From Antitrichia curtipendula (lineage: Eukaryota; Streptophyta; Bryopsida; Hypnales; Leucodontaceae), in the NCBI GenBank assembly GCA_951230915.1, contig OX579634.1:62001-126000 (forward strand): a DNA stretch of 64,000 nucleotides, in the 5' to 3' direction. The stretch's first letter is position 1. Every line of letters starts with the position of its first letter. The position numbers were made by a program, and so were the translations under genes. The notes under the pieces were generated by a model. The model saw nothing but the letters and a program-made list of their open reading frames with translations. It had not been told where the DNA came from and searched no databases. Shown in pieces: positions 2,771 through 63,900 of this stretch.

Positions 2771-2849
2771 TAATTTTATTTAATAATAGCGAATGTTATG
2801 TACAATTTTAACGTATCCAAGAGCTATTTGCAGCATGGAGTTAGAGCGG

Positions 2850-14420: not shown

Positions 14421-14436
14421 AGCAGGAGTTAATCAA

Positions 14437-15537
14437 ATGGGAAAGAAAAGAAGAGGTTCTAGAGGGAAAGGTTCGAAGGATGTTTATGAGAAAGAAATTC
14501 GAAAGAGGCGAAAAGAAGAAAACATTGAAGACGCGAAAATCCGAATTGGAGGAACCAATCCAGTTTTTATTTATGAAAAAGAACGACAACTTGAAAATTT
14601 CAAGGGAGAGCGCATGGACAGAATTCCAGAAGATTATACCCGAATTTACCACGGCAGAGTTGCGGTTCAAGATAGAGAAACCAAAGAAATAGTTCTTATG
14701 GTACGGTTCTCTCCTTTCAAGGATATGATGGCGAAAGATCGAAAGGATCTAGCGAGATCTATGAAGACATTGATAGAACTATCGAAAACGAGTAACAAGA
14801 TCAAAGGAAATGTGAGTCACAAAAATGGAGATGGCGTGATGTACGCGTTAGGTTGGAGAGGAGGATACGATGCAAATTTCTCCTTGGGAAGATATGTACC
14901 TGTTCCCGCGGTTCAAAAATCCAAAGCAGCTTTACGGAGATGGCAAGAAGCTCAGGAAAAGAAAGTGGCTGAGATCGGCAATGTATACCGAACCCGGTTT
15001 GAAGATATGGCTTCGGAACTTTTTCGTAAAGTATCCAAAGAAGCAATTGAAGCCGGAGTTCCTGATTTCTCTCAGACCGAATTTCTTGATCTGGAGCCCA
15101 TAACAGAGGTATTTGCCAGTAACTTGACGTGTAGCTTTCAAGACTTTTCGAATGCATTTCACAAAGATAAAGATTATAACTCTTATTCCTATGGAATTTG
15201 GGCTCCATTGATTGCAAAGACCGGAGATCTAGCTACCGTAGGTGATGGTTTTAAATGCAAGGGTGGAGAATTTCTTATACCCACTTACAAAATCAACGTC
15301 GATTTCAACGAGTGCGATGGTATTGTGGAAATAATTTGGAGGGGGAAGCAGGATTTTCACGCGACTTCGAAATCTGAAAGTTCAGAGGGATTTACCCGAT
15401 TGGGTACTTCAGTTCAAATCAGTCGCAGTTTAGTTTTTAGACTCTGGAATACTATAGAAGAAGAAAATAGTATTGAAGGGGCAAACAACAGAATACGCGG
15501 AGTGCAACAGATCGTCATGGAGAAAGGAGGGATTTAG
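14437..15537 (+). CDS. TET/JBP-like 2-oxoglutarate/Fe(II) dioxygenase, copy 1 (intact)
   Basis: The 366-residue protein probably oxidises the methyl group of modified bases in DNA (5-methylcytosine to hydroxymethylcytosine and beyond, or thymine in JBP) using 2-oxoglutarate and Fe(II) in the nucleus. Seen: a basic N-terminus (residues 1-28, KKRRGSRGKG and KRRKEE, NLS-like), and a C-terminal double-stranded beta-helix region with HKD at 242-244 (metal HxD), GIWAP at 253-257, GGEF near 276, a DFHAT distal His at 308, and a candidate 2-oxoglutarate-binding Arg at 321 (FTRLGTS). The pattern HxD ... GW/P ... GGxF ... HxT ... R is that of fungal TET/JBP proteins. Start: ATG at 14437; an in-frame upstream extension to 14410 lacks an ATG and contains an acceptor-like TAG. 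No introns or stops are needed. The closest relative in this window is the frameshifted copy at 51347-52461. Family assignment is by motif recognition only. Activity and substrate are inferred. Confidence 0.78.
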   Translation: MGKKRRGSRGKGSKDVYEKEIRKRRKEENIEDAKIRIGGTNPVFIYEKERQLENFKGERMDRIPEDYTRIYHGRVAVQDRETKEIVLMVRFSPFKDMMAKDRKDLARSMKTLIELSKTSNKIKGNVSHKNGDGVMYALGWRGGYDANFSLGRYVPVPAVQKSKAALRRWQEAQEKKVAEIGNVYRTRFEDMASELFRKVSKEAIEAGVPDFSQTEFLDLEPITEVFASNLTCSFQDFSNAFHKDKDYNSYSYGIWAPLIAKTGDLATVGDGFKCKGGEFLIPTYKINVDFNECDGIVEIIWRGKQDFHATSKSESSEGFTRLGTSVQISRSLVFRLWNTIEEENSIEGANNRIRGVQQIVMEKGGI

Positions 15538-24195: not shown

Positions 24196-27100
24196 CGGAC
24201 CATTGTGGAGAGTTTGACCATCAAGACCATATAAATGAATAGAAAATATGTAGCACTGCCATTGCGTTGATGATAATCTTACCGCGGGCACTCACTCAAA
24301 TTTTGTATCCATCACACAACACTCATGGATTCAGCAAATATAATGCTATTTTACATCATGTTGATGGTATGCATGGTCAAATCACGATTGAGAAGAAGAC
24401 AATAATGCGCCAAGAAGGTGAGAAAAAACCCCCACGGGGAATCGATAGCACTTGCTTGATGAGTTGGTTGAGAGTTATGGCCCTATACTTCACGCCCGGG
24501 ATAATGGTAGACTAGGAACAAGACTTTGCAATACCAGCCACTAGATGTTGTATCCTCAATCCCCATGAGGTTGTGGCCTACAGTTCAAAGTGACATGGAG
24601 CGTAGGAGATGAAGGGAAAATTGGAAAAAAGCAATGGCACCTTGGACTACGCTTTGGTGGCATACTTGAAGTTGGTTCATATGAAATTTTTGACATCATC
24701 TACACCCGAAACCAAAGGCTCTCTTCAACTCATAATTTATTCAACTACTCACTCATCTAATTGATGAGAGGATCAAAACTTGTAATCCACCATCCTCGGA
24801 AAGTAGGAAGCCCAAATACATAACAACTCCAACTGAAAAAATGGACAAACGACAACAAGGAGTTGGTCTTCTATGTCCTCTTTGCACTACCGGGTATGTT
24901 TTCATGAAAAGGATTCTTTCACTACCGGGGTTAAACACCAAAGCATGACATTTTGAAGCATCAACAAAACAGGTTTGCATCCCTACAACATGGGCAATGG
25001 AATGACCCCTATTTTTCATCACCATTAACAACTATGACATTTTTGTTAATACAAAATTATATCATTCACACGTGCTTGATGCAAACCTGGTTGTGATGTT
25101 GGTTGTTTGTTAGGAAATCGACGAGCACTTGTTCCCTTAGAATTGCACCGTCCACTCCACTGCCACAACTGGTCCTCCACCCGAATAAAAGAGGTACTCC
25201 TTGTACTCCTAAGTGCACTCTTTTACTATCCTTTGTTGAACCGTAGGACTTAGAAGAGTACACGTGAAAGATGGCAAGGCCTCTAAAGGTGAAGAATGTG
25301 CAATAGACGAGGGAGGTGCACAAGTGGAGGAATAAAGACTGGCAATGGTACACAAAGATGCACATGGGTCTTTCTCTTTGCCAGACTTGGGATTCCTGAC
25401 AACCATAAAACACCTCTACTTGCCTCATTACACCGGGTGTATGACAGCATTTCTAGAAGGGGATAATCATAAAGACGCAATTCCAATAGTATCATGGTGC
25501 TTAGCCCCCCCCTTGGAAAGTGTACCCCACACTTAATATGGAGTCTGGTAGCATTAAGAGTGCGCGTACGAGATTGTGAAATGTAAATGTCCTATGATCT
25601 AGTAAAAGTATTTTCACCCTTTTATTGGGATAGGAGCACAAAGAACCCGATGTGATGGGCTCAAAGAAAGAAGAAAACATAGGAGTTGGACTCGGTCGGT
25701 CCTCAATCCTAGACCTCATGTTTTTTCTTGATTCCCGACCTTCTTTGTTGACCGCCCGGCACTCTATGCCGTACGGGGACCGGATTACTACCGTACAGAG
25801 AGGGCCGTGGTTGTAAAGAGTCGCCTAGTATGACTATATTGCAAGGCATGCTTTCACCGGTGGTTGCTTGCTCTTACCGGCTTCTACACAGTTAAAAGAA
25901 TTTTTTTATCATTTATGTGGCATCTATGGCTTTGCATTGCTTCCGTGTACTATATACTCATATATAAATATTCATACGTGCATACTTGTTTTTACAAAGT
26001 ACCGGTTATGCAATCCTTGGCTTCCTCTCTCGGTACAAATATCCATTTGTAAATTACCATAAATAAACCTCCAATGAGTGGTATACCCTAAAAACTATTG
26101 CATTATTCTTAAGAATAGACATGATGTGCACGCCTACGTCTCCTATTCAAGATAATTATTTTAAATCTTGTATATGTCAAAGCAAATCCCTCGTTTGCAA
26201 TAAAAACAACCATGGAAAAATTGAAGTGTTTGGTTTTGAAAAAGGGTGGTGAATACCAAAATTAAAATATAGAGTACACATCTTTAGAAATACTCAAAAG
26301 TGAACTAAGAATTCCCTACCCGTATTACAAACAGAATGAGTCACTGAAAATCATTGCATGTGGTTGTAAATGATAACCCTAATTTACGCCAAGTTTTGAT
26401 GTCTTCACTTTTCATCTGTGACTTCTAATTCAATTTGAAAAAAATAGGTGAAGTGGACAAAAAATATGGCCGACTACACCATGAAGATCTATGCGCTCTT
26501 GACATTGGCGTTCACTATTATAGTCCTTTGCTTGATGCGGGAGATGGGCGCCCCAAACAAAGGCATGGAGTGCATCTAAAGCTCTAAAGCCGGACCTCAT
26601 TAGCTTGAATCTATGCGGTATGAGTTTGACAAGCTATGATCATAGTGCTTGGTGGTTGCTCCTTGTCTCGGAAACCACATCAGCTGAAAGGAGAAAGGTC
26701 CCGGTAGCCGCTTGTTCATTTCTCAATTGCTTTTGCTTTGCGCCTTGGCTCTTTGGCTCTCCGATGGTTCTAAATCTTGGCCTAGTCTTTTTGCGTTGTA
26801 CGGCGTGTTGTTTTTTACGAGATGGATCAAAACATAGCTTTGAACATCAACTTTACCATTTTTATCCAACAAAAAACTAACGACACATCTTTTAAATCAC
26901 CATTGAAATTACTGGATGTCACTCGCTTTTGAAGCTTAGTTGAGGCTCACCCTTCACTAACACGAACATTTGGCAACCATGTCCAAGACTACGCATTGCT
27001 TTTCTAGGTCCAAAATGATGTTGTTAGCCAAAAGGAATGAAATGGTAGCCCTTGCAAATGTTTATACCCATGCATAGGAGTTTGATTATTTATTAAACTT

Positions 27101-32479: not shown

Positions 32480-33870
32480 AATTCGATGGGACCAATAAGT
32501 GTAATGGTGTACACCAGGGTTGAAGTACACCAGTGTAATTCATTCAAACAAGGTAGCGTGATGGTGTACTTGGAGGCCTGGCTACACCGGTGTAACTCTT
32601 TAGGACCAAAAGCGTGTGGTGTATCCACAGGCCAAATTACACCGGTGAAATTCCCGGAGATCAAGAAGCATAATGGTGTACTCGAAGGCCGAGCTACACT
32701 GGCGTAACTTCTTGGGATGGGGTACTACAATGGTGTACCTAGGGGCCGAGCTACAATGTTGTAACTTTCTTGGACCGAGAAGTGTAATGGTGTACCCGAG
32801 GGTCAAGCTACACAAGTGTAACTCTTTGAGATGGGGCAATGTAACAGTGTACCTAGAGGCTAGGGTACATCGGCGTAACTCCCTAGGACCAAGAAGCGTG
32901 ACGCTGTATCCACGGGCTAGATTACACTGGTGTAATTTGCTGGGATGGAGAAGTGTAATGGTGTACTCGGGGATCAAGCTACACGGGTGTAACTCTTTGA
33001 AACAGGGCGGTGTAACGGCGTACCTCAAGGCGAGGCTATATTGGTATAACTCCCTAGAACCAAGAACCGTGACGGTGTATCCGTGGGTTAGATTACATCG
33101 GTGTAATTCGCTGGGATCGAGAAGTGTAATGGTGTACCCAGGGGTCAAGCTATATCGGTGTAACTCTTTGAGAGGGGACGGTGTAACGGTGTATTTGGAG
33201 GCTAGGATACATCGACATAACTCCCTAGGACCAAGAAACGTGATGGCATATCCACGGGCTAGGTTACACCGGTGTAATTTGCTAGGATTGAGAAGTGTAA
33301 TGGTGTACTCGAGGGTCCAGCTATACAGGTGTAACTCTTTGAAACGAGGCGATGTAATGGTGTACGTGGAGGCGAGGCTGTATTGGTGTAACTCCCTAGA
33401 ACCGAGAAGCGTAATGGTGTATCCACGGACTAGATTACATCGGTGTAATTTGCGGGATTTAGGGTAGTGTAATTGTGAACCCGGGGGTCAAGCTACACCG
33501 GTGTAACTTTTGGAAATGGGGCGGTGTAACAGTGTACTCAAAGGCTAGGCTATAGTGGTGTAACTCCCTAGGACCAAGAAGTGTAATGTTGTATCTACGG
33601 GCTAGGTTACACTAGTTAGTATATTTCAATGGGATCAAAAAGCGTAATGGTGTACCCGGAGGCCGGGCTATGCCGGCGTGGCTCTTTGGAACAAGGCAAT
33701 GTAATGGTGTCTTTGGAGGCCGGGCTACACCGATGTAACTTCTTGGGATGGGATAGTGTACCGGTGTACTTGGTTGTCAAGCTACACCGGTGTTACTCCC
33801 CATGATCGACGAGTGTGATGGTGTATTTGGAAAGTGGACTTGGACATGTCCGGGTATTTGAACCTATCCG
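32480..33870. repeat. 57-bp minisatellite organised as a 171-bp higher-order repeat
   Basis: Units of 55-59 bp contain GTGTAATGGTGTACxxGGGG and CTACACxGGTGTAACTC. Successive units rotate through three types (ACTCGGGGATCAAGC, then a GGCGGTGTAACGGCGTAC type, then a GACGGTGTATCCGTGGG type), so similar units recur every ~171 bp, for example 32955, 33126 and 33296. Because 57 is a multiple of three, frames stay open on both strands (264 codons plus, 182 codons minus). I regard these as repeat artefacts. Confidence 0.85.
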
Positions 33871-43079: not shown

Positions 43080-43890
43080 AGCCTTTCTCCTTCCCCCACC
43101 CGTGCTCATTTTTCTCTTTTCTATCGACGGATCTCCCGATGGGATGTGCCTTCTCCCCCCACCTGTGCTCATTTATCTCCTTTCTATCGGCGGATCTCCC
43201 GATGGGATGTGCCTTCTCCCCTCACCTGTGCTCATTATTCTCCTTTCTATCGGCGGATCTCCCGATGGGATGAGCCTTCTCCCCCCCCTGTGCTCATTAT
43301 TCTCCTTTCTATCGGCGGATCTCCCGATGGGATGAGCCTTCTCCCCCCCCTGTGCTTATTATTCTCCTTTCTATCGGCGGATCTCCCGATGGGATGAGCC
43401 TTCTCTCTCCCCTGTGCTCATTTTTTTCCTTTCTATCCGTGGATCTCCCGATGGGATGAGCCTTCTCCCCCACCTGTGCTCATTTTTCTCCTTTCTATCG
43501 GCGGATCTCCCGATTGGATGTGCCTTCTCCCCTCACCTGTGCTCATTATTCTCCTTTCTATCGGCGGATCTCTCGATGGGATGAGCCTTCTTCCCCCACC
43601 TGTGCTCATATTTCTCCTTTCTATCTGCGGATCTCCCGATGGGATGAGCCTTCTTCCCCTCCTATACTCATTTTTCGCCTTTCTATCCATGGATCTCCCG
43701 ATGGGATGCCCTCACCTATGCTCATTATCCTCCTTTCTATTGGCGGATCTCCCGATGGAATGAGCCTTTTCCCCTCACCTGTGCTCATTTTTCTCCGTTC
43801 TATTGGCGGATCTCCCGATTGGATGGCCCTTCTAAGCCCATAGCTCTTTTATTCCCCATTCTATTGGTAGATCTCCCAGTGACCATTTTA
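43080..43890. repeat. 62-63-bp tandem repeat (CTATCGGCGGATCTCCCGATG type)
   Basis: About twelve units; CTATCGGCGG recurs at 43121, 43184, 43247, 43309 and 43371 and onward. Each unit is GATCTCCCGATGGGATG, GCCTTCTCCCC, then CACCTGTGCTCATTATTCTC. Overlapping frames in all phases are repeat artefacts. It is the counterpart of the repeat at 31.77-32.42 kb, but far more homogeneous. Confidence 0.9.
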
Positions 43891-43964: not shown

Positions 43965-44760
43965 ATAACCCCCAAAGGTTTTTGACTATGTACCCTCCTA
44001 AACCGCTCCTAAACTGCCATTTCAAATACAAGTACCAAATTTCAGAAAAAAGACATTTTTGGACACATGCAACCGTAGGATCTTGTGGTAAACCGGTTTG
44101 AAAAGGTGTGGAAAAAATTTCAGAATTTTCCACCATGTAGATTGCAAGATATTAGTGTTTAAATTGAGCCAAAGCCTTTTTTTTTGTCCCTACAAAAAAC
44201 CGAGCAGCCGCACTTCACAAGGTCACATTTGATTTGTATGCAAAAATGTCCAAAATGGTGGTTACTCTTTGGATTCATTTTTGAAGTCAAGTTGGCCATA
44301 TGCTTGAAAATGTTTAGATCATTTGGAATTGTACAACATATAGGACAAAAAAAGTAAGTAGAAAAAAATAGAGAATGATTCAAAACACCAAATTGTTAAG
44401 AATTTAATTATAGGATTGAAAAATGCCAATCCCAATGGTGATAATGTTGTAATAATCTATCTACACCCAATGTTTTTATTTTTTTTCAAAAATACCCTGA
44501 ACTGAATTAAATAAAGGACTTCAAAGTTTATTTTAGAGTAGGAAATGCACAACTGCCTGCAAACTAGAACACCTCATAATTTTGATATCATAAATCAAAA
44601 TGGAATAATTCCAGACTTAAAGTTGCATATATAGATCTATAAAATTGGTTTCAAATTTTCAATTTTCTTAAAAATGATTTCCTTAGAATTTTTTGAGCTG
44701 CCCACCAAGCAATGGAAATCACATGTCATACGATAACTTTTTAATTGTGGGGTCAAAAGT
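43965..44760 (+). mobile_element. TTAA-type MITE family, copy A (5' end plus body)
   Basis: The start reads ATAACCCCCAAAGG, close to the TTAACCCCTAAAGG ends of copies B-D. The body (44235-44760) aligns in the same orientation with 53341-53850 (shared landmarks CTTTGGATTCATTTTT, CTTGAAAAT, TTTGGAATTGTACA, AATGCCAATC, TCAATGG) and the first 600 bases align with 50213-50780. No coding capacity. It ends in DNA continuous with the 44.76-45.15 kb repeats. Confidence 0.6.
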
Positions 44761-45789
44761 TATGAGGTGTGATGGTGTACTGGTGTTAACCCATTACACT
44801 TGAGTCCGTGTTATATCCTTATCCTAAACCCTACTACCGCCTTACACCTTCTTGCTCCAAGGAGGTACACTTGTGGAAGGGTGTACATGAGTGTTAAGGA
44901 GTGCACCTTCACTGCAACTGTACACCATTACACTTCACGCATTGGTGTAAAATCCTCACCTAGCAGTGTAATGGTGTAGGTTTGTTGACCCTGTGCACTC
45001 CCGTACACCTTTCTAAGGGTGTACCTCCCCGGCCAACGAAGGTCCGAATTGTACCAGTGTCCACTCATTACACCTAAATTTACAACACCCCCTCGTTGTC
45101 ATGTAGCTCCCCGACATGACAAGGTGTAATGGTGTAAGAGTGCACCGGTGTTTTTAGTTTATTTTTTATTTTGCTAAAACCCAAAGAAATAAGGCTGTCA
45201 ACCCCAGGTGGATGGTTGCCGCGACACCCCTAAACCCAAAAATAGGCACAATTTTTGATTGTGGAGGAATTGAAGGCGTAATTTACGTTGTTGGAAAAAA
45301 GAGGAGAAATCAGTAAAGACCCGCCCCCTAATTTATCACATTGAACAGAAATGGATGCCAAACGAGTTGCCGAAGTTGCCGCAACCCATGAAAACCTCCA
45401 CCTTCAATCCCCTCTCATTTTCGATTGGTTGAAACTGAGCCTTCCAGATCACTACCGCTAGAAAGAAGAGACGAAATCGGTCCGAACCCAACTTGAAATT
45501 TCTTGCATTGGGCAAGAATTGCATGAGATTTGGGTCGCCGAAGTTGCTGCCAGCAAAAAAAACTGCGACCTAAAAAGGGCCATAACTTTCAATCGGTAAG
45601 GAATTAGACCTTGAGAGTAGTCCCGTTGGAAAGAGGAGGAAAAAATCAGTCAAGATAGGCCTATAATCCCCTGCATTCTTGGAGGTCGACCTGCATTCTC
45701 AAAGGAAATCTTACACTGTGTAAGCCCTTTGTTAAAAGGTGTAACGAAATACACGGAATGCACTGCATTCCCGTGCCTTCTTCCTATAG
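44761..45789. repeat. Second copy of the stacked repeat block
   Basis: 44761-45150 consists of GGTGTAATGGTGTAC-type units (as at 32.5-33.9 kb). 45190-45710 consists of CATAACTTTT/CGTTGGAAAGAAGAGG units (as at 34.3-35.2 kb). 45758-45789 repeats the closing motif GCATTCCCGTGC seen at 35300. Order and orientation match the 31.1-35.3 kb block, so both are copies of one larger composite repeat. Confidence 0.7.
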
Positions 45790-45936
45790 GCTTGCTCTAA
45801 TTTATGGCCTCCAAGTATGTGGGGACGCTTTGGAAGTCATCCTTCACACAATGCACATACCTCATACTTGGGAAGCACTTTGAAAATTCCTAAACCAAGA
45901 AGGAGGGAAATGAAAATAAAAAAAGAAACCATGAGG
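45790..45936 (+). repeat. Tandem partial duplicate of the outer end of the long inverted repeat
   Basis: About 147 bp beginning GGCTTGCTCTAATTTATGGC duplicates the sequence starting at 45937 (GGCCTGCTCTAGTTTATGGC) and includes the first ~95 bp of the left inverted repeat arm, followed by a short A-rich filler. The right arm has no such duplication. Confidence 0.8.
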
Positions 45937-45949
45937 CCTGCTCTAGTTT

Positions 45950-46783
45950 ATGGCCTCCAAATATGTGGGGACGCTTTGGAAGTCATCCTTCACACAATGC
46001 ACACACCTCATACTTGGGAAGCACTTTGAAAATTCTTAAAATGAATTAGAACAAAAATTTACATTTAGATTTAGTAACCTTGTAAGAGAGTACTTATATA
46101 TATTTAGTAGAAGCAAATATATAGATATAAAAATATATGGAAATATAAAATGAAACTCTATACATATATAGTGTTTACAAAGTAAAAGATTAAATTTTAT
46201 TTTTAATCTCCATGTTATTTTTGGATGTGAGGCCTAGAGTTAGTTCAAATTTTATATTTAGAGCAAGTATTTTCAGTTATTCTATATGTGTTTTCTGAAA
46301 ATTCAAAGGTATTCAATTGAAGATCCTAATCTTTAGTGATTGTCCAGTAACTTTAGAGAGAACTTTAGAAATAATTAGGTTTATGAAAAATTTTCAGATT
46401 TTTAAGTTCATCTAATTTTCAAAGAATACTCTCATACTATGTATATAATTCATGTGATTATTACAAAGCAACTATACCAAATATAATGAAAATTATCAAT
46501 CTCAATGGTCACAAAGTGAAAGAATTCTATTATAAAAGGATTGTTTTATTTTTCAAAGGTGAAATTATTCTAATGTTAATGGTTCCTTTCATTTTTCAAT
46601 AAAGTAAAAGAACTCCAGTGTGAAAAATATCTTTTATATTTCAAAAACTTAAAAGAACTCTAATGTAAAAGGTTGCTTTTACTTTTAAACATAAGTGTAT
46701 AAAAGAATGGCAAGAGCCATAGAAAACATTATTTGCGTTTATCACATTGCATTTATTTACAATTACTAGTTGTTACCAAGTTC
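45950..46783 (+). repeat. Left long inverted repeat arm
   Basis: Starts ATGGCCTCCAAATATGTGG and ends GTTGTTACCAAGTT. Reverse-complementary to 52503-53337 along its whole length with few differences (for example CTCCATGTTATT versus TTCCATATTATT near 46210). AT-rich and non-coding. Confidence 0.9.
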
Positions 46784-47510
46784 GTGTAGAGCATTACTTT
46801 GAGTAGAGCATTACTTTGAGTAGAGCATTTCAGGTGAATAAAAAAAATAAAATGTGTGCAATGCAAGTTTTGTCCATTTGCATTGGTATAACTAGTTTTT
46901 TGCTTCTAAAGATTATTGCATTCTTTACTTCCCAATTTGAACCCCTATATATGCAATCCTCATTCTATTCTTGATTTATAGAGAAATTTATAGATAATTC
47001 TTATATGTTTTATTATTGATATTTTGGTTTTTCAAACCTTAGAAAATCACAATAATTTGTTTTTCTATCCAAATATATTGAAAAAAATGACATTAGTAGA
47101 AAATGTTTTTCTTCACTACACAAATATATCAGAATTTCATTCATGTATTCTATGAAAATCTAAACTTGGTTGGATAGTCGAATTCCACTTGAAGGTCATT
47201 GTTGAGCCCATGGCTGTGAAAATTGAAATGAACCATGGAAAACTATTTGCAATACTCTTCATTATTATTTGCATCTCTAGCTTGTAAAAAATCCTAACTC
47301 ATTTTGATAGTTCTTCCTTTTTTTAATTTTTTCCGTTTTATTATATGCAAAGAAGTGCTTACAATTACATATTTGAAGTAAACAAAGCAAAAAAATTCAA
47401 AGTCATTTATAATGCAAAGATAGAAGTATTAGAAATATAATATTTTGGTTCGAATACAATTTAGAAGGTTGTATTTAGCTCAAAGAAGATGTTAGACCAC
47501 TTCGCAATGT

Positions 47511-49262
47511 ATGAACAGTCCTTCACAATTTTACGCAAAACTAAAACCTTCCTCAGGTCGTGGCCGCGGAGGTAGGGGTGGAGGTCGGGGAGGCCGTCAT
47601 GGAAGGGACAAAGGTGGTGCTTTAACTTCAGCGTCTAGTAAAGACAAGATAAAAGAAGACTATGGCCCAAGCAAATGGAACCAGAGGTATATGAATTTCA
47701 AGCCCCACCCTAAACCTTTTAGTGGTCCATCTTCGGGCTTGACTGAAGAGTGGGACCGGGTCCCATCTTTTCTTCAATTATTTGGACAGTTCTGGTCTAT
47801 TCAGACATTGAGGCGTATATGTGCCGAAACAAATAGATACGCAACAGAGGAACTAAGGAGGGTGAAACATGGGATTGAAAATGCTACATGCCCCAATGAT
47901 TATGAAACCTACACCCGTGGGGGCACTGGGTGGAGATCGATGGATGTAGGTGAACTGAAGGCCTTCATTGCAATCTCTTTATACATGGGCCTAAAGAAAC
48001 TCCCGAATGTACCCATGTACTGGCAGAAATCGGAACCATTTGTTTATTGCCACATCATATCCCAGCTTATGTCACGCAATCGATTCTTGCTTCTATCAAA
48101 GTGTCTTCATGTCACCAACCTAGCTTCTATATGCTTAGATCGAAAATCCCCGACTTATGACAAAGTTAACAAAGTGAGGTGGTTGTTGAATGAGCTTCGT
48201 GATCGTTGCAAGGCCCTATGGAATAATGGAGAGAAAATTACCATTGATGAGATGATGGTTCGTTATAAAGGTGTGTATTGTCCCGTGCGGCAATACATGC
48301 CCAACAAGCCTGAGAAATGGGGACTAAAGATTTGGTGTCTTGCGGATTTTGTATCACACTTTGTTAGCAACTTTGATGTTTACTGCGGAGCATCTATAGA
48401 AACCGTGGGGGCCCCTAAGTCAAAGAAAGGAGAGCCAAAGATGGGACAAAGGGTAGTGGAGGCATTGCTTCAAGGATTGGAAGGTCAAGGCCATGTTGTT
48501 GTAATGGATAATTTCTTCACAAGTGTGGAATTATTCCGTGATTTAGAGCAAGGTGGTACATATGCCACGGGCACTCTTCAAAGCAACCGCATAGGACTCC
48601 CAAATTTTATGAAGGAACAAAAAGCATTCAAGAAGTCCACGCAAGGAAGTTTGGAGTGGGCAATGCATGACTCACAAAAGATGTGTGCCGTCATGTGGAT
48701 GGACAAGAAACCAGTCCTTTTATTATCGACTAGTGCTTTGCCACTATCTTTTCCATGTGAAGTTGTTGAAGTCCCACGCCAGGTAGGTGGGAAAATTCAC
48801 AAAATCAAGACATCACCGGTTCATTTGGAGTACACTACTTTCATGTGTGGTGTTGATGTAGCGGATCAGCTTTGTGGTTCTTATTCTTGCCAAGTACGTT
48901 CCCATAAATGGTGGCACCGTCTTCTATTTTTCCTCATTGATACAAGTGTTGTAAACATGTGGATCCTCTACAAGGTGATTTTGAAGGGAAAAGGACGTGA
49001 AAAAGAGTCCTTGTCACATTTCAACTTCATATTAGCACTTTGCAAGGCATTGACAAGGAATTGGGTAGGCCAAAAAGCAACCATTTCACTACTATGGGAG
49101 GACATGCCCCGAATTCATTGCCCTCAGAAAAGTAGGTTGCGCCGTCGATGCATTGTGTACAAAAGGAGGACAAATACTTATTGCGCATTATATTCATTCC
49201 ACTGGGTGTGCTATACACGTGGGTGCTACATGAAAATGCACCATCCTAGTGGTACTTTTTGA
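47511..49262 (+). CDS. piggyBac-family transposase (DDE_Tnp_1_7)
   Basis: A 583-residue protein in one uninterrupted exon. It would cut and paste TTAA-targeting elements in the nucleus. Seen: an RG-rich N-terminus (residues 17-32, RGRGGRGGGRGGRHGR), the piggyBac core with TIDEMM (D246), VMDNFFTS (D333), CGVDVADQL (D449, D452), and a HKWWHR segment (465-470). It ends in a Cys/His-rich tail (C547, C558, C567, C572, H576/H577), like the C-terminal cross-brace domain of the family, preceded by RLRRR. Length matches typical piggyBac transposases (550-600). The start is the first ATG of the frame. The three catalytic aspartates and an unbroken frame suggest a potentially active enzyme. piggyBac elements are well known in animals and rare in plants. 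A TTAA-ended MITE family close by is a plausible substrate. Confidence 0.93.
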   Translation: MNSPSQFYAKLKPSSGRGRGGRGGGRGGRHGRDKGGALTSASSKDKIKEDYGPSKWNQRYMNFKPHPKPFSGPSSGLTEEWDRVPSFLQLFGQFWSIQTLRRICAETNRYATEELRRVKHGIENATCPNDYETYTRGGTGWRSMDVGELKAFIAISLYMGLKKLPNVPMYWQKSEPFVYCHIISQLMSRNRFLLLSKCLHVTNLASICLDRKSPTYDKVNKVRWLLNELRDRCKALWNNGEKITIDEMMVRYKGVYCPVRQYMPNKPEKWGLKIWCLADFVSHFVSNFDVYCGASIETVGAPKSKKGEPKMGQRVVEALLQGLEGQGHVVVMDNFFTSVELFRDLEQGGTYATGTLQSNRIGLPNFMKEQKAFKKSTQGSLEWAMHDSQKMCAVMWMDKKPVLLLSTSALPLSFPCEVVEVPRQVGGKIHKIKTSPVHLEYTTFMCGVDVADQLCGSYSCQVRSHKWWHRLLFFLIDTSVVNMWILYKVILKGKGREKESLSHFNFILALCKALTRNWVGQKATISLLWEDMPRIHCPQKSRLRRRCIVYKRRTNTYCALYSFHWVCYTRGCYMKMHHPSGTF

Positions 49263-50212
49263 ATAAATGGAAGTAATTTTTTCTAGGAACTTCATCCATG
49301 CATACAAAATATATGTTCATTATTTTGGTTTCACTTTCAAATTTTTTTGCCTATAGACTTGGCATTCCATATTTGGCACTTAGCTTGACCTTTTGCAAGG
49401 GCTTCTACCTTTGCATTTTAGTTGTAGGCCTTTGGTAGACTTTTCTACATTAGCATTTGTGCCTTACATTTTATATGTGCTGCAAACTGGCTTTATTTGA
49501 AGGAGAGGCTTATGGTTTTCCTTTACAAAGGGAATATATGCTATATTTATGTAATTTATTTTTGACATATGACTTTCTAAATTTTCCATTTGTATTTCTA
49601 TATCTCAAATTTGCGGTTTCAATTGTATTTTTTCTTTCTACTCATGCGGCTTTACTTCTTATATGTGACTTATGGCTTTAGTGCTTTTTTTCTCGCTCTG
49701 GGCTATTCATTAGTTCTGAATGTTGTAGCTTCATTTTTTTGTTTTCCCTAGTAGCATCTCCATTTTTTAGCGGCTTTAGGCTCATCACATAGGAAGTGGC
49801 ATTTGGCTCTACATTTTTTTTTATATTCTCATTTTTTTTTAAACTTTTTCTTAGGAGGTAAGATAGCTTTTCGGTCTACCTTTGTTGAGCAGCTTCTGCA
49901 TGCCCACTTTGTACTTGGAAAGTGTCATTATCTTATGGTGGCGGTGGAGATTGGGGGGGCTTCTCCCTTTCCTTTTTTTTGGGCTTCTCCCTTCACAGTT
50001 TTTTCTTGGTGTTATCCCTTTATATATTTTTTTGGCTACTTCCTTTATATATTGTTGTAGCTACTCCCTTTAAATTTTTTGTTAGCCTTCTTCCTATATG
50101 AAGTTTCTTTTGGCTTCTTCCCTTATAACTAAACTTGACTTCTTCTGTAACATCTTTTTGGGCCCCAACGCTTCACCATTTTGGCTTTGCCTTCTTCTTT
50201 TATATGTAATTT
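49263..50212. other. Pyrimidine-rich 3' flank of the transposase gene
   Basis: T- and CT-rich sequence with loose repeats of CTTCTCCCTTTATAT / TTTTTTGGCTACTTCC (49960-50150). No gene. Probably the 3' UTR and spacer between the convergent genes. Confidence 0.5.
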
Positions 50213-50800
50213 TTAACCCCTAAAGGACCGAGCCCTTTTCTCTGCCAAAAAACTCTCAAAACTACCATTCCTAGAGCAAAGAGTAAAAATATTTGAAATT
50301 TTTTTTTCACATCTAACCGTAAGATCTTACACCTAACTAGTATGAGAATGTGTGGAAAAAATTTCAGAATTTTTAACCGCACAGATTGTAAGATATTTGC
50401 ATTCGAAGTGAAAAAAAATAGTTTTTCAACACATTCTGCGACTGGATTTTATGATTCAGAACATTTTGAACATTAAATTTTTGCACTAGAGAGTTTTGAG
50501 CTTCTAATGTTTATAGTGGAGAATTGAGTTGAAAATCTAAGGAAAAAAAAATATTAAAAAAAAAATAATTTTCAGCAATAAAAAAATTGTTGAGTAGAAG
50601 TAGGTATGAGATAGAAGGAAAATCTGAAATATTAATATCTTTTATATGGAATTAAAAATCAGTCATCCCAATGGTGAGATTATTCTAGCACAAAAAAAAA
50701 ACACGTGGAACTTTTTTTTTTTTTAAATTCTAAAAATTGCATTCAGAAATGAATCTTAGAAGTTATTTTTTTCAGGAAGATGCTCTAAGTGCCCGACAAC
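50213..50800 (+). mobile_element. TTAA-type MITE family, copy B (5' end)
   Basis: Begins TTAACCCCTAAAGGACC at 50213-50229. The next ~570 bases align with copy A (shared landmarks: TGTGGAAAAAATTTCAGAATTTT, split here near 50353, the CCAATGGTGA block near 50672, AACCGTAAGATCTT at 50317). It lacks the far end of the family unless that is represented by 53990-54006 (see findings). Confidence 0.6.
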
Positions 50801-50939
50801 ACACACCCAGACTATTATAAAGGCAAGCCAAAAAAGTATAAAAGGTATTTAGAGGTAAACACAAAGGTTAGGATACAAATATTAAAAGAAGTGCAAAATT
50901 GTAGAAGGTAAAAAAAATTTAAGGAGCTACAAGGAAAAA

Positions 50940-51190
50940 ATTTGATGATAAGTAAAAAATAAATTGGGAAGCTAAGGGAAAAAAATGGGAAGCTTTTGGA
51001 CATATATTACCCTTCAAGTGGTTTAGGGAAAAAATATGGGAAGCTAATGAAAGAAATTGCCATTCAAATGGTTTAGGAAAAAAATGGAAAGCTAAGGAAA
51101 GAAATTACCATTCAAGCGATTTAGGAAAAAAATGGAAAGCTAAACCATTTGCCATTCAAATGGTTTAGAGAATAAAATGGGAAGCTAAGG
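50940..51190. repeat. ~50-bp minisatellite downstream of TET/JBP-2
   Basis: About five units of AAATGGGAAGCTAAGGAAA, then GAAATTACCATTCAA, then TGGTTTAGG. It lies between copy B and the 3' end of the minus-strand dioxygenase gene. Non-coding. Confidence 0.75.
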
Positions 51191-51346
51191 AAACAAAATA
51201 TGATTCAACTAGAAGGGTTCACACAATTGAAACAAAAACAATCCATTATAATATACAATAGTTTCAAATTAGACAACAAATAGGTAAGCCACTATATTTT
51301 TAAGGTTGATAAGTTCCTAAAATGTCTTATTAGAAACTATAGTATT

Positions 51347-52461
51347 TTATCTATTATCATGTAGTTTCTGCTTCTTTTGCTCAACAATTTCTTTCAGTCC
51401 ACATACTTGGGGATTCACATCTTTTCCATCTCTTTGCTTTTTTATCAAACTTTTTACTCTATCTACCAAACTTTTAGGTATTTGCGTAGATGTGCCAACA
51501 CGTGTAAATCCTTCTATTGTTCTTGATTGTGAAGTAGCGTGGAAGTCAGTTTTTCCTCGCCAAATTATTTCAACAATGCCATCACATCTTCCAAAGTCAA
51601 CATAGAGTTTGTAACTTAGAATAATAAAGTGACCTCCATTACAATAAAATCCATCATCTACTTTAGCTAATCTTCCATTTTGTTCTATTGTAGGTGCCCA
51701 AATTCCATACACATAAGAATTATGGTCTTGATCCCGATGGACGGTATTGTAAAAATCATCAACAGTGTAAGTGAGCGTGCTTGTGAATCCTACAAAGTTA
51801 TGTTCTAGATTTATAAATTCTGTTTGGCCTAATAATGGAACGCCAACTTGCAATGCCTCATCAATAGTTTTTCCATACATGCATGGCCCTAGTTCCATAA
51901 ATCTTGATTCATAAAATTCCGCAATCCATTTGACCAACTCCACTTGGTCTTTTTCCCATTCATTTATAGTGGTTTCAGAATTTTTAATACTACGCCCCAT
52001 GACATAGTGACCCATGGTGTATCCTCTATCCATGCCACCTCTCCATCCCAATGCAAACATTTTTCCATTAACTTGGGCCTTATTGTTTTTTATGTAGCCC
52101 GAGCCTCCCTTCCTCAATTTGGCTAGAGACATTGTTAGTTTCTCGAAGTCTTCATATTCTTTAGAGGATTCAATGTCTTCAAATTTTGTGAAAGAAATCA
52201 CTAGCACTATTTCTTTGGTACTCTTATCTTGGATGGCTACTTTTTTTTTGTGTAGACTAAATAGTCCTTTGGAACCTCATCTATAATTGTTCCATCTAAA
52301 GCATTGTCTTCCAAATTGCGAGGTAGTGAAATCAATACGCATTCATTTTTTTTATGTGGACCTATTCTTTCAAATGTTTTCTTCAAAGTTCTCTCATATC
52401 GTGCTTTTGCATGAGCCTTGTTCTTTAGGCTCACATTGCCTTTTCCTCTCCCTTTTGTCAT
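51347..52461 (-). pseudogene. TET/JBP-like dioxygenase, copy 2 (one frameshift)
   Basis: Two minus-strand frames, 52461-52237 (74 codons) and 52207-51347 (286 codons), are co-linear with the intact copy at 14437-15537. The N-terminus is basic (TKGRGKG, compare KRRGSRGKG) and VPKDY matches IPEDY. The second frame carries HRD (H157/D159), GIWAP, GGHF, DFHAT (H223) and FTRVGTS (R236), so all expected metal and co-substrate residues are present. The break is in a run of nine A on the coding strand (52249-52241), one base short of what the homologue implies. It may be a true mutation, a homopolymer sequencing error, or slippage. Overall similarity to copy 1 looks moderate, so the paralogues are not recent duplicates. 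The ATG is 41 bases from the right inverted repeat arm, which therefore must hold its promoter. Confidence 0.75.
52241..52249 (-). other. Homopolymer at the frameshift of TET/JBP-2
   Basis: Nine T on the plus strand (nine A in the coding sense) directly follow the codons for VYT. The upstream frame ends KKK-stop. The downstream frame resumes with codons matching VAVQDRETKEI of copy 1. A one-base length difference in the run accounts for the break. Confidence 0.85.
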
Positions 52462-52502
52462 TGTGGATTTTCTATAGTTTTATAAAATTGAAATCTATAA
52501 TT

Positions 52503-53337
52503 CAAACTTGGTAACAATTAGTAATTGTAAATAAATGCAATGTGATAAACGCAAATAATGTTTTCTATGGCTCTTGCCATTCTTTTATACACTTATGTTT
52601 AAAAGTAAAAGCAACCTTTTACATTAGAGTTCTTTTAAGTTTTTGAAATATAAAAGATACTTTTCACACTGGAGTTCTTTTACTTTATTGAAAAGTGAAA
52701 GGAACCATTAACATTAGAATAATTTCACCTTTGAAAAATAAAACAATCCTTTTATAATAGAATTCTTTCACTTTGTGACCATTGAAATTGATAATTTTCA
52801 TTATATTTGGTATAGTTGCTTTGTAATAATCACATGAATTATATACATAGTATGAGAGTATTCTTTGAAAATTAGATGAACTTAAAAATCTGAAAATTTT
52901 TCATAAACCTAATTATTTCTAAAGTTCTCTCTAAAGTTACTGGACAATCACTAAAGATTAGAATCTTCAATTGAATACCTTTGAATTTTCAGAAAACACA
53001 TATAGAATAACTGAAAATACTTGCTCTAAATATAAAATTTGAACTAACTCTAGGCCTCACATCCAAAAATAATATGGAAATTAAAAATAAAATTTAATCT
53101 TTTACTTTGTAAACACTATATATGTATAGAGTTTCATTTTATATTTCCATATATTTTTATATCTATATATTTGCTTCTACTAAATATATATAAGTACTCT
53201 CTTACAAGGTTACTAAATCTAAATGTAAATTTTTGTTCTAATTCATTTTAAGAATTTTCAAAGTGCTTCCCAAGTATGAGGTGTGTGCATTGTGTGAAGG
53301 ATGACTTCCAAAGCGTCCCCACATACTTGGAGGCCAT
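52503..53337 (-). repeat. Right long inverted repeat arm
   Basis: Reverse complement of 45950-46783. The outer end reads TACTTGGAGGCCAT and meets TATTATGAAA of MITE copy C. The inner end (AAACTTGGTAAC) is 41 bases from the dioxygenase start codon. Confidence 0.9.
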
Positions 53338-54006
53338 TATTATGAAAAAATTTCCAAAGTGGTTGTGGTTCTTTGGATTCATTTTTCAGGGCAAGTTAGC
53401 TACATGCTTGAAAATTTTCAGACCCTTTGGAATTGTACAGCATGTAGAAAAAAAATAGTAAGTAGAAAGAAGTAGAGAATGGTCCAAAACATTAAATTTT
53501 TAAGAAGTTCATTATGGAATTAAAAAATGCCAATCTCAATGGTTGCAATTTTGTAATTTACACTTTGCATTCTACAATTTTATTTCTTTTGGAAAATATT
53601 GAAAATTGAGTGAAATAAATGACTTCAAATTTTATTTTAGAGTAGACAATCCACAACTGCCTAAAAACTGAAAATCCTCAAAATGTTTGACTCATTCATC
53701 AAAATGGAATGTATCAAAGCTTTCCATGTATACATAAATATAATAAACCAACGTCAAATTTTTATTTTTGGAAAAAGTGATTTTTTTTATCTGCCCGGAT
53801 TGCTCAAGTTGAGAAACAAACTACAAATCATGCAATAACTTTTGACTCGTATTTCCAAATGTCATGAAATTTTTGGCATACAGAATATATTCCTTGTCCC
53901 CACCTTCTATAAAAATTCAGCCCAAAATTTACAAATCTCTAATCACACGTACTTGCCTATAATTTCTATGTTGCCCAAGAATGCATGTTGGTCCTTTAGG
54001 AGTTAA
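53338..54006 (+). mobile_element. TTAA-type MITE family, copy C (5' truncated)
   Basis: Aligns from its first bases with the interior of copy A (44235 onward), so the 5' ~270 bases are missing exactly at the end of the right inverted repeat arm. It ends GGTCCTTTAGGAGTTAA (53990-54006), the inverted counterpart of the 5' end of copy B with one difference. Confidence 0.65.
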
Positions 54007-55149
54007 AGTAATCTTTCATTATGGCAAATTTGATAACATTGTAGTAAATAAAATATTTGAATAGCTCTCATGTAAGCAAAATTCAATAAAAGATTAGGCA
54101 ATAAATTACATTGATTATCCTAGTGAAGTGTGTTACAAAAAGAACTTATAAGTGAATATAATATGATTATAACTGTTTACGAGGAGGAGTAATTTTACAA
54201 GGGAAGAATCCTTTATAAATGTTATAACCATATGTAAGTTCATTTTGAAACATACGCTAATATGACAAATCAATGCAGCCACAGGGGCTAGAGCAAACGG
54301 AAGAATGTCAAAACACAAAAACTGCATGACTATACTAGCTGTATAATCCCGCTTTATGGTAGGATGCTCTAAAAGCGACCAGCTTTTTCAAATCAACCCC
54401 ACAAAACGGTACTGAATAGATATGAGGTGGTCTTGAAATGGACCACTTTAATCATTGATTGATCCTTCCAAAAGAGCTTGATATGATGAAATTAAGCTCA
54501 ATTTCCATTGTGCTTATCCCATAGAGAATAAAAAGAGTAAAATAAGAAGAAATCGAGTTGATTTCCAGGGATCAATCGGGCTGATTTTTCAGGGATCAAT
54601 TTGGCTTTTTCCATCCAGATTTTAGTTCTCAATCGGGACTCAGGAGAGCCAGCCAGCTGCAACGTCAGACCGCGGCAAGTGGCGGCCGGGGGACAAGGAG
54701 CCGGCTCAAACGGACCCTTCTGCTTTCAATTTGGACCATGATTGCCTAACAAGGAGGGGCAAGTGGTGGCCTCAGGGGCTGGAATTTGAATTCCTACATT
54801 AGGAACTCAAGGCATTCAACTGCCTTCGGGGGGGGGGATCGTGGCAAGCGGTGGTTGTGGGGCGCACTACCAGATGCAAACATGTGGTGGACGGCAGGCT
54901 TGCTGTAAGGATGGACACGATATTGAAGTACGAGGGTGCCTTGAAGCCACAACATTCAAATTTGTGAAAAAAAATCAGAGGTTTCCCAATTGCAAGCCTC
55001 ATATAAAATAGCTAATTATGCAAACAATTTTCGAATTTTTTATAAAAGTTTTATCATGTTCATGCTTGATCTATGAGTCCAAAAATGTTGGCATTTGACT
55101 CAAATTTGCAAAAGTTACAGGCCTTTGAGTGCAAGCTGCCCAGGATTGA
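54007..55149. other. Spacer, nothing coding recognised
   Basis: AT-rich to 54560, then a GC-richer patch to about 54980 with a run of nine or more G near 54829. No ORF above 67 codons. No RNA gene seen. Confidence 0.4.
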
Positions 55150-55376
55150 ACTTCAGAAAAATGGTCTGAAATTGAACTTTGAATCCATTTTTTATAAAAT
55201 CCGTACAGTCAAATGATCTAAAAATTTCAAGGTATGTTGAACACAACAAAATACACAAGATCCAACGGTTACATTTAAAAAAAAATTGTTCTAAAATTTT
55301 CTGGCCTCTTTATTCTAAAACGGCCGTTTTGGGACAATTCTGGAGCCTCCCCCCCCCTTGGACGTTTAGGGGTTAA
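55150..55376 (-). mobile_element. TTAA-type MITE family, copy D (one end)
   Basis: Read on the minus strand it starts TTAACCCCTAAACGTCC (55376-55360), followed ~100 bases later by AACCGTTGGATCTTGTG, as in copies A (AACCGTAGGATCTTGTG) and B. The far end was not found. It contains a run of nine C near 55350. Confidence 0.55.
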
Positions 55377-60384: not shown

Positions 60385-60952
60385 ATCAGCGTCGGTGAAC
60401 GAGTGCGGGACAACTGAAGTGAAGGGTTGGATCCGTTACGTTACGTTATCATACTCCAAATTTGTTCTGTCGAAGAGCGAGAGCCAGCCCTGCCCGCTCC
60501 GGAAGCAAGTGAGTGGGATGGTCTTCCCCTCTCGAAACCCTAGAATTTTGTGCAATGTGTGCACGCACCACGTTGCCTCCCCTTCTCTAGGCTTTCTTTG
60601 GCCCGTCTGCCCCTCCTGTCCAGATGAGCAGCGCTGGTTGAAGTCCTCCGTTCCTGCCATTGCCACTGGGTACGGCAACTTCCTCTCATGTCTCGAGCAA
60701 CCGATCTTACCGCCTACAGCAGCTTGATATCGTTACTCCGAGCAATTCTCATCTCCTCGTATCGTCTTTCTTGTCATGTTTGGATATTAAGCGCGACTGG
60801 ATTGCAGCCGTGAGGTTTTAATCCATGTTCCCTCGGTATCCTCTAAATTTCCCTTCTGCAATGGTCTGTTTCAACCCTCCTGTTCACCCACATGGATGAG
60901 CCGACGATTTTCGTGCTGTGGTTTTGATCCTCACCTCCTTATCGTTCCAGCG
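60385..60952 (+). promoter_or_regulatory. Probable promoter / 5' UTR of SAC3 gene
   Basis: GC-richer, T/C-rich sequence typical of a plant leader precedes the start codon. CTCCTTATCGTTCCAG at 60935-60950 directly before the ATG at 60953 looks like a 3' splice site, so an intron in the leader is likely. The 110-codon frame at 60395-60727 has no recognisable domain and is treated as leader sequence. Confidence 0.4.
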
Positions 60953-63900
60953 ATGGATTCGTCGGGTTTCAACACTGGAAGGGCTGTTGCAGTCCCATTG
61001 GTGCCACGTCAGGGAGTCGTCTTTGGCAAAGCAGCTGCGGCAGGAAAGCCTGTAGTTGGAACGGCTGGGGACAAGGCTGTTGCTGGATTATTGCCTGGAT
61101 CGGGATCTGGCCTTGGCAGGCCGACGGTTAAAGGTGCTAGACCAGGTGCACAGGTTTCCAATGCGGACACTGAACAAAATGTGCACGGCAGGAAGCCCAG
61201 CCCTGCTCGCATGCGGAAGTCAGCCTCGGCTTCTGCTCATCCTCCTGTTAAACAGAATCTGGGTGGAGCAATCTTCAGCGATGCCGAGCTGCAAAGGTCA
61301 GTAATATCTGCTCAGTTGAAGGTAGAGCGAATAGACAAGAGGACAAAATAATAAATCAGTCGTATTGGGTTGTGTTAGTTTTGATGCCTGTTCTTTCATT
61401 TAGGTTTTATGCCGTGTTTTTGGTGCAGAGAAGCGAATGCAAAAGCTCAGAGACTTCTACGATTTTCGCAAGGTCAGGAAACTTCCGAATTAGCATCACA
61501 GCCGACTATTGGCCGTGTCTCAGGGAAGGCAGGACATCGATTTCCCCAGCGAGAATCTCGACAGCCGAGCCAAACCCTAAAGCCCTCAGTGGACAATGCA
61601 CAACTTGACACAATGGAAACGGAGGCCCTTGGGGAGGACTTCAGCTACACAGAAGCAATTGTCGGGACTTGCGATGACATGTGCTCAGGTAGTTTTTCCT
61701 TAATGATTTTTAATTTTCACTTGGTTCTGCTTTCCTTATTCAAATGCGGTATGTCCAAGGTCAATTTTAAATTAGAATTGCGAGACTGAACCTTTTCTGA
61801 AACGTAATTTAGGGTGTCACTGGCTGCTCCGTGTGAGATAGGAGTCAAGCAAATTGCAAAACAAAGTAGGGCTAAGGACTGACTGAAGGTGCTTAACTTG
61901 CGTGCTGTGGATGTTTTCAAAGAAACCGAACGACACGAACGCGAGAGAAAAGGTGACCTTGACAAATTTGAAAGAGTAGATGGTGACCGTAACCTGACCA
62001 GCGTTGACTTGGCAATTAAGAAGGTACATACGGTTTAACAGGGTATTGTTATCTGCATTGGCTTAGCTAGTCTATTGTCACATGCACCTGACCATGAAGT
62101 CATTCGAGCTTATCTATTTCGAGCTCAAGTTCACTCCTGACCCTTCAAACCTGTTTGGAGCAAGCTGAAGTGAGTTTGAGTTCGGGGTTCCTGTATCTTA
62201 AATGCACATTCTAGCTTTTGTCCGTCTTGCTAAGCATCTTTCCAAACATGTATGTCGATCCTGTGTGATAGTATGAAGTTTGGTCGTATGTGTTCTTGAT
62301 TATCCGTAAGTCTAGAAAAGACTCAGCTGACTTTGCGTTAACAATGCCATTGAAGTTTGTTCCCTAATAAGTTCTTGGCCTCTGGTGATCCTGCAGTATA
62401 CAAGGACTCCTTCTCGAGAACCTCACTTGATTCGTCCTCTTCCAGTTCTTCAAGTGACTATGAACTATCTTTTGTCGTTGATCAATCAAGTTTATGATGA
62501 ACGACTCTTAAGGCTCCATAGTTTTTTATGGGATCGAATGAGAGCAGTGCGCATGGATTTACGAATGCAGCATATTTTCAATCGTGAAGCCATCACCATG
62601 CATGAGCAGATGGTGAACTTTTAACACCACGAGTGTAGCTTATCTTACCGAATTTCTTTGATAGCGATGAATATTTTTTGCTGGGAAGAGGAGCTTTGCA
62701 TGCATCTTGTCCGAAAATTTAATATTCGCAGTTTAATTGTTATTTTAAATTCCGTAAGGATTCTCTTGTGGATTGTTTAATTTTTGTATTAGTGCAAAAT
62801 CTTGTTTTTATTAGACATTAACAATTTAGTTTGATGTTATTTTCTCAGATCCGGTTTCACATTCTTGCTATGCACGAGCTTTGCGAGTACAAGAAAGGGG
62901 AAGGTTTCAACGAAGGGTTCGATGCTCATCTAAACATTGAGCAGATGAACAAGGCCTCTGTAGATCTCTTTGAGATGTATGATGATCATCGAAAGAAAGG
63001 AATTCAAGTTGAAACAGAGGCAGAATTTAGAGGCTATTATGCTCTGTTGAAACTTGACAAGCACCCAGGGTACTCTGTAAGTGAACCTAGCCACCCAAAT
63101 GTCTGCCATAATTTATCCTTCTATTTTGTGGAGGCATTCTGGCTTTGGAAATAATAGAATTTAACACTATTCTGAAATTCTGTAGGTTGAACCTGCGGAG
63201 CTATCTTTGGATCTTGCAAAGATGACACCAGATATGCGGAATACTCCTCAAGTTGCGTTTGCTCGGGATGTTGCCAGGTCTGTCACCTTTGTGTCTCTTG
63301 CATCTCTAGATATTAATTTATAATAAATCCTCCTCTTTAGTTTGCACGTATTCGTTAGTTTGGTGGTGGTGCCACTCGAAGTAATCTTAAATTGCTGATT
63401 TGATGCTGTCCCTAACAAGCATATCTGTATGCAAAAATCGTCATTTTAGCTCTTGCAACTTTAAATGGGTCAAATTTTGTAGAATCGATTAGGTCATCCC
63501 TCTATTCAGGTGTCTTGGAAGAATATGTTCAAATTTGCACATCTCCAGAAGATGTGCTTCAGGGATGTTTGGAGTTTGCGATCCCCATCTTGTGCGAGGT
63601 GTTATTTTCTTATGGTTGTAGTTTGCCAATCCTATTGGTGTTCTTAATAGCCAATATTGCAGGAAGGCAATTAAGAGAACTTGATCAATATCCTCCTGGA
63701 GTTTGGCAGTTTCTCAAAGCCTGCATCATCGTTGGAAGCAATTGAAGAATGCATATTTGGACTTTGCGGAAGGATGCCTTATTGGTGTAGTCTTTGTTTG
63801 GGCACGACTTACAGTGTACGAGATGGAGGCAGCTCTTGTGCTCTATACTAATGCGCGTTTTCTTGACAGACATGATTATTTGATGAGTAGTTTTTCCGCT

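Follow-up and report, generated by a model that had tools for sequence, protein, structure and literature searches.

The stretch of DNA analysed here, referred to below as the window, comprises 64,000 nucleotides of Antitrichia curtipendula (G000:C2:62001-126000), lies 62-126 kb inward of the telomeric end of contig C2, and contains an element carrying a piggyBac-type transposase gene and a gene for a TET-like 2-oxoglutarate/Fe(II) (2OG-Fe(II)) dioxygenase, hereafter TET. The initial annotation of this region had described near-identical inverted arms enclosing two convergent genes, an intact transposase and a TET/JBP-like gene, and had proposed a plant piggyBac element that had acquired a base-modifying enzyme. 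We searched the host assembly (400 Mb, 303 contigs) for related loci; the window element and three close relatives are called family A, and L031 is a TET element without transposase found elsewhere in the genome. The features of the window element are the following.

45788..45894, plus strand: additional tandem unit (146-bp period) repeating the outermost part of the left arm; similarity to the other three family-A copies begins here
45950..46782, plus strand: left internal inverted-repeat arm (the arm of the initial annotation), upstream of the transposase gene
47511..49262, plus strand: piggyBac-type transposase, 583 amino acids (aa), PF13843
50213..50229, plus strand: internal piggyBac-type terminus TTAACCCCTAAAGGACC, the same as the left end of L031; likely the seam of a TET-bearing element
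51013..51193, no strand: tandem repeats of 48 bp on the downstream side of TET
51347..52461, minus strand: TET-like 2OG-Fe(II) dioxygenase gene, PF20515, whose catalytic part (51347-52207) is open
52505..53337, minus strand: right internal inverted-repeat arm, separated from the TET start codon by 43 bp at its inner end
53338..55372, no strand: right terminal region, ending in the piggyBac terminal inverted repeat (TIR) ...GGACGTTTAGGGG
55373..55376, no strand: TTAA target-site tetranucleotide of the right junction

The arms are real: the 833 bp at 45950-46782 recur in inverted orientation at 52505-53337 with 99.04% identity, and both the transposase (plus strand) and the TET-like open reading frame (ORF, minus strand) lie convergently between them. 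They are not the termini of the element, however, but internal repeats within a larger one with TTAA ends, since no TTAA is found at 45950 or 53337 and homology runs past the arms in other copies. A PIF/Harbinger-like 3-bp target site at the arm ends had also been considered and was dropped after the true TTAA ends were found. The window copy has kept its right terminus at 55372, followed by TTAA, while on the left the homology to the other three copies starts only at 45788, which places the truncation point at about that position; approximately 2.9 kb are missing, among them the left end and a third ORF that measures 241-338 aa in the other family-A copies and for which no Pfam family was found above the cut-off. 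An AT-rich repeat present three times in diverged full or partial form, at 44056-44606, 50213-50790 and 53341-53710, resembles subterminal sequence of this piggyBac group.

The window transposase matches PF13843 (DDE_Tnp_1_7) with an E value of 1.7e-77. Residues D246 and D333 are invariant and D449 is nearly so in 12 aligned sequences; all three, which we take to be the piggyBac catalytic Asp triad, are present in the window protein, whose C-terminus is Cys-rich. A protein database search returned 113 matches, the closest being JGI proteins, and no relative was found in a viral contig collection. The TET-like ORF at 51347-52207 (286 aa, minus strand) matches PF20515, the "Tet-like 2OG-Fe(II) oxygenase superfamily", with an E value of 8.1e-43, the sole Pfam family at E<=1, and contains the iron-binding residues H157-x-D159 and H223. 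In 12 aligned TET sequences (two of them from the window) both histidines are conserved in 12/12 and the aspartate of HxD in 11/12. Protein database searches with TET gave 3 and 15 matches, environmental assemblies among them and none with an NCBI or UniRef name, and no relative appeared in a bacterial genome-contig collection. The convergent arrangement and the open transposase thus stood as first described; the TET gene, though, is frameshifted, its first ~70 codons (from 52461) being in another frame and the gene one base short in comparison with the other three copies.

Full arm pairs are present at four loci genome-wide, with spans of 7.37-7.39 kb and the order arm-transposase-TET-arm in 4/4; such common spans and gene order argue that the pairing of arms and genes is not due to chance. 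By aligning 30 kb around each of the three loci outside the window we obtained three complete copies of 13,359, 13,404 and 13,103 bp including both TTAA (C7:13395982-13409340, C1:42470433-42483836 and C10:19889709-19902811, respectively), whose aligned pieces are 98.1-98.5% identical pairwise and whose flanks are unrelated. In all three, the left end reads TTAA followed by CCCCTAAGCGCTCGAG and the right end GCGTTTAGGGG followed by TTAA, with different sequence outside; the TIRs CCCCTAAGCGC and GCGTTTAGGGG are alike at 10/11 positions, and this combination of TTAA, CCCCTAAGCGC...GCGTTTAGGGG and TTAA is the canonical piggyBac signature. The TIR pattern occurs at 324 genome sites with up to 2 mismatches, as compared to 0 for a reversed-pattern control, and its three exact sites are the three complete copies. 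The complete copies run on past their arms, for ~3 kb on the left and ~2.4-2.6 kb on the right, as far as the TTAA-flanked ends. Their full inverted arms measure 1127-1128 bp in the C7 and C1 copies and 893 bp in the C10 copy, the outer ends bearing 91-bp tip copies at a 146-bp period, in a number that varies among element copies. The transposase has no stop in the window copy, the only one in that condition, one in C10 and two each in C7 and C1; TET is frameshifted in the window copy, has one stop in C7, is open but lacks an ATG in C1 and shows an N-terminal frameshift in C10.

The possibility, raised in the initial annotation, that the pairing was a one-off rearrangement is refuted, since another piggyBac family of this genome carries TET as well. 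Four further loci with 86-87% TET identity constitute this family B. Its unit at C1:44583296-44595174 (11.88 kb) begins with TTAACCCCTAAAGG, ends with CCTTTAGGGGTTAA, has TTAA at both ends and contains four ORFs, all on one strand, two of which are the open frames of TET (371 aa) and of a piggyBac transposase (606 aa); the family-B TIRs are CCCCTAAAGG and CCTTTAGGGG. At C1:3.466 Mb the transposase is open and a single stop interrupts TET, and the copies on C5 (5,954 bp, TTAA at both ends) and C4 have an open TET and no match to the A or B transposase within 17.5 kb and 8.0 kb, respectively. TTAA was therefore seen at both family-B ends in 2/4 copies, only the right end falling within the sequence examined for C4 and for C1:3.466 Mb. 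The transposases of families A and B are 46-48% identical at the protein level.

Besides these two family-B copies, TET was found without a transposase at one C8 locus and at one locus of a third group, family C. The latter locus is L031 (G000:C10:11429500-11439499), in whose 10 kb neither transposase was found; together with ~20 similar loci it has a single arm and a decayed TET (43-50%) whose stops recur in similar sets, a pattern that looks as if amplification came after the death of TET. Another locus, G000:C3:10476500-10486499, holds an interstitial TET of the subtelomeric type described below (53%) next to a stretch 72% like the upstream region of the family-B TET, and no helicase or piggyBac gene was found within its 10 kb.

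Between the TETs of families A and B we counted 67 synonymous changes on 232 sites and 59 nonsynonymous changes on 881 sites (dN/dS 0.19, Fisher p 7e-18). The ratio was 0.22 between the TETs of family A and the C8 element (76% identity), and 0.075 between the family-A transposase and that of a TET-less sister. These values indicate that both genes were under purifying selection during divergence. Moreover, TET A and TET B are separated by a dS of 0.37, being far less diverged than the transposases carried alongside, from which we infer that TET moved between piggyBac lineages, and did so under selection.

How TET could have entered family A is suggested by two observations. The sister just mentioned, at C2:15237645 (transposase 82% identical, 80% at the DNA level), has a related left end (70%) and a match to the third ORF (71%); neither arm nor TET was found in the 10 kb examined, ~4.1 kb of it downstream of the transposase, and its right end was not found within it. 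In addition, the second piggyBac terminus TTAACCCCTAAAGGACC at 50213, between transposase and TET, matches the left end of L031 in all 17 bases, and past it a weak similarity to L031 continues for ~200 bp (66.7%, E 1e-8). Because of this match and of the TET-less, arm-less sister, family A is likely a fusion between a transposase-bearing left part and a TET-only piggyBac-type element; the TET module would have come in as such an element, its left end still being visible at 50213.

The genome-wide counts of transposase, TET and arm loci are lower bounds, as we scored 75 of 1177 candidate transposase matches, 136 of 361 for TET and 40 of 168 for the arm. The arm lies upstream of TET, with 43 bp between it and the start codon in family A and 51 bp in family B. 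When the 40 longest of 107 arm matches are merged into 36 loci, 25 of these have TET within 8 kb, 0.19 being expected; by this spacing and association the arm behaves as the upstream region of TET. It may be the 5' regulatory region, a putative promoter, of that gene, in which case the inverted second copy upstream of the family-A transposase may allow both genes to be driven inward by one sequence.

The copies also bear marks of the kind expected from DNA methylation. On 9,222 gap-free sites of the four family-A copies we found 220 singleton substitutions, their direction set by the 3:1 majority, of which 151 were C>T/G>A and 32 the reverse. Per-site rates were 31/254 (12.2%) in CG, 23/280 (8.2%) in CHG and 97/2640 (3.7%) in CHH, vs 32/6048 (0.5%) for AT>GC. 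In family B, 15/22 singletons were C>T/G>A with the same order of contexts, although on small numbers. A CG>CHG>CHH gradient of this type is the footprint expected of plant 5-methylcytosine (5mC) silencing, and it would give the TET gene a job; the idea of the initial annotation that TET might remove or alter DNA methylation fits both this deamination footprint and the purifying selection.

Our preferred reading, to which we give a probability of about 0.85, is that the window element is a truncated copy of a 13-kb plant DNA transposon of the piggyBac superfamily carrying a TET-like dioxygenase as cargo, the latter probably an anti-silencing factor. This agrees with the origin first proposed, as 3/3 complete copies are piggyBac-ended, with TTAA on both sides in each and on the right side of the window copy, and transposase and TET occur together in 4/4. 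The transposase would mobilise the element by TTAA cut-and-paste, and the TET protein would oxidise 5mC on element DNA, thus weakening silencing by the host.

A different role for the enzyme is unlikely, in our view, but deserves to be taken seriously: TET might be a mere passenger, or might serve the host or other elements, for example by acting on transposase-bound DNA or by marking DNA, instead of protecting its own copies. One might suspect this from the two family-B copies, the family-C locus and the C8 locus in which TET travels without a transposase, and from a subtelomeric helicase ORF (28 near-identical copies scored of 105 candidates, 0 with stops) that has a TET within 12 kb in 26/28 copies. 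Such transposase-less carriers, however, would equally be expected of a selfish demethylator acting in trans, and a passenger fits poorly with purifying selection between the transposon-borne TETs and with their repeated association with mobile elements, for which the methylation footprint supplies a direct reason.

Somewhat less probable still is that the enzyme acts on RNA or on a base other than 5mC, such as N6-methyladenine, thymine (as JBP) or the 5-glyceryl-methylcytosine reaction known for CMD1, so that it would write a new mark and not demethylate. Another activity has been left open for two types of fungal transposon TETs by Kojima 2025 (PMC12730594); here, the host footprint is one of 5mC, which makes this base the obvious, if indirectly indicated, substrate.

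We also asked how far the two genes could be chance neighbours, that is, an ordinary piggyBac insertion beside an unrelated TET gene, both inside a segment that was duplicated or is palindromic. The locus does show large inverted arms and local tandem duplications, and TET genes are numerous (at least 137 matches at 133 loci; the transposase search gave at least 77 matches, merged to 75 loci). Yet TET lies within 12 kb of 6/75 scored transposase loci, four of family A and two of family B, vs ~0.6 expected by chance, and both genes sit within TTAA-flanked ends in 3/3 complete family-A copies with unrelated flanks, as well as in the diverged family B; element borders common to dispersed sites refute this explanation, which we regard as very improbable.

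Two further observations concern the nature of the host. We counted 210 CCCTAAA units, presumably the plant-type telomere repeat, in the first 1500 bases of C2 and 117 in those of C1, and none in the last 1500 bases of C5 and C1, so that 2/4 contig ends examined bear such arrays and sustain the plant origin first assumed. Frames at 60896-63742 of the window, ~5 kb beyond the element, resemble what we take to be a plant SAC3B/GANP gene; these SAC3-like exons and the telomeres ruled out a fungal (rust) host, which had been considered. Contamination of the assembly by a fungus with TET-bearing transposons, the only source of such DNA transposons found in print, is hardly credible, as the four family-A copies lie on contigs of 25-56 Mb, two of which (C2 and C1) begin with CCCTAAA arrays, the C>T signature (CG, then CHG) is plant-like, and the paper on the fungal elements (PMC12730594) does not mention piggyBac.

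Several points weigh against the reading of the element as a piggyBac transposon with an anti-silencing TET. The assignment of the enzyme as TET rests on PF20515 and motif residues; a PDB sequence search gave no match and the AlphaFold model was poor (pLDDT, the predicted local distance difference test score, of 37.7), giving no structural support. Both frames are fully open in 0/4 family-A copies. By absolute number most of the 151 C>T/G>A changes are in CHH (97), and the count was taken on element copies alone. The decay suggests eventual methylation of the copies, and the strength of this decay implies that TET, if active, gave no long protection. Furthermore, no scored TET lies within 12 kb of 69/75 scored transposase loci, and for this reason we consider the pairing a trait of two families and not of piggyBac in this genome generally; the same holds for 11/36 arm loci at a distance of 8 kb. 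Unscored candidates may hold further pairings, and these absences are provisional.

With regard to known systems, plants are thought to demethylate DNA by means of DNA glycosylases, and to our knowledge no TET enzyme has been recognised in them. Elements of the piggyBac superfamily usually measure a few kb; VANC genes are carried by Mutator-like elements, and the alga of CMD1 is Chlamydomonas. With piggyBac elements such as that of Trichoplusia ni, the element described here shares PF13843, the conserved Asp residues, the TTAA target and short TIRs of the CCC...GGG type, and differs from them in its 13-kb size, the TET cargo, the further ORFs and the long internal inverted arms with 146-bp tandem units. 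TET-bearing DNA transposons are known from fungi, where ten lineages have been reported (Dileera, hAT, Harbinger/PHISTA, IS3EU, EnSpm, ESTA, Helitron, Kyakuja, Zisupton and Plavaka) and TET genes move between transposon superfamilies, according to Kojima 2025 (PMC12730594). As in families A and B, these elements combine a transposase with a TET/JBP-like dioxygenase, show target-site duplications in most cases, exchange TET and have been assigned a proposed anti-silencing role; the present ones differ in having a piggyBac transposase (0 mentions in that paper), a plant-type host, and TETs that also occur in transposase-less piggyBac-type elements and beside a subtelomeric helicase gene. Among the papers listed in searches of an open-access library, no TET-bearing transposon in plants or in piggyBac was found.

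The VANDAL elements of Arabidopsis provide another parallel, being plant DNA transposons that encode an anti-silencing factor, VANC, and have variable tandem repeats (Hosaka 2017, PMC5735166). VANC is described in that paper as a sequence-specific anti-silencing protein whose targets often form tandem repeats, which the tandem units of the arms may recall, whereas here a piggyBac element would carry, as the factor, a predicted enzyme belonging to the 2OG-Fe(II) dioxygenases. CMD1, which makes 5-glyceryl-methylcytosine (as described in PMC12730594), is alike in being a TET-homologous enzyme of the green lineage, a likeness drawn by description only.

A broader proposal, on which we would offer even odds, is that selfish DNA in land plants has a DNA-oxidation programme of its own. 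TET-like enzymes acting against the host's CG/CHG methylation would be carried by two or more piggyBac lineages, by their transposase-less satellites and by a subtelomeric helicase unit (~26-28 copies); the piggyBac lineages would have swapped these enzymes, and selection would have retained them. The arms, with their variable 146-bp units, would provide shared promoters and recruitment sites. If true, a transposon-borne plant TET would represent an enzymatic counter-defence against RNA-directed and maintenance methylation, and the range of TET-bearing transposons would grow beyond fungi to include plants and the piggyBac superfamily, a much-used transposon tool. If unrelated transposons have captured and exchanged TET both in fungi and in a plant, this would indicate a general solution in the arms race, and the direct question raised is whether 5-hydroxymethylcytosine is present in this plant, and on these elements.

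The subtelomeric TETs fall into two groups: at least 24 matches at 47% identity have an open 375-aa frame and at least 31 at 44-45% an open frame of 380-383 aa, all of them, where lengths are known, on small contigs or no more than 0.7 Mb from the end of a large one. One of the 31 is a second intact TET-like gene of the window (14410-15537, plus strand; PF20515, E 2.4e-48), convergent with the helicase ORF at 19273-24291 (minus strand), which encodes a 1672-aa OrsD/DEAD-helicase protein. The copies of this pair, on chromosome ends and small contigs, form a subtelomeric unit. A tyrosine-recombinase domain had been suspected by eye in the 1672-aa ORF, in which Pfam found none even at E 10. On the telomere side of the unit lie arrays of a 382-bp tandem unit (1053-5121 and 12793-14024). 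The window further includes a 163-bp palindrome, 94% self-complementary, at 5973-6135, and two shorter tandem arrays, of 171 bp x4.9 at 32777-33613 and of 63 bp x12 at 43093-43833.

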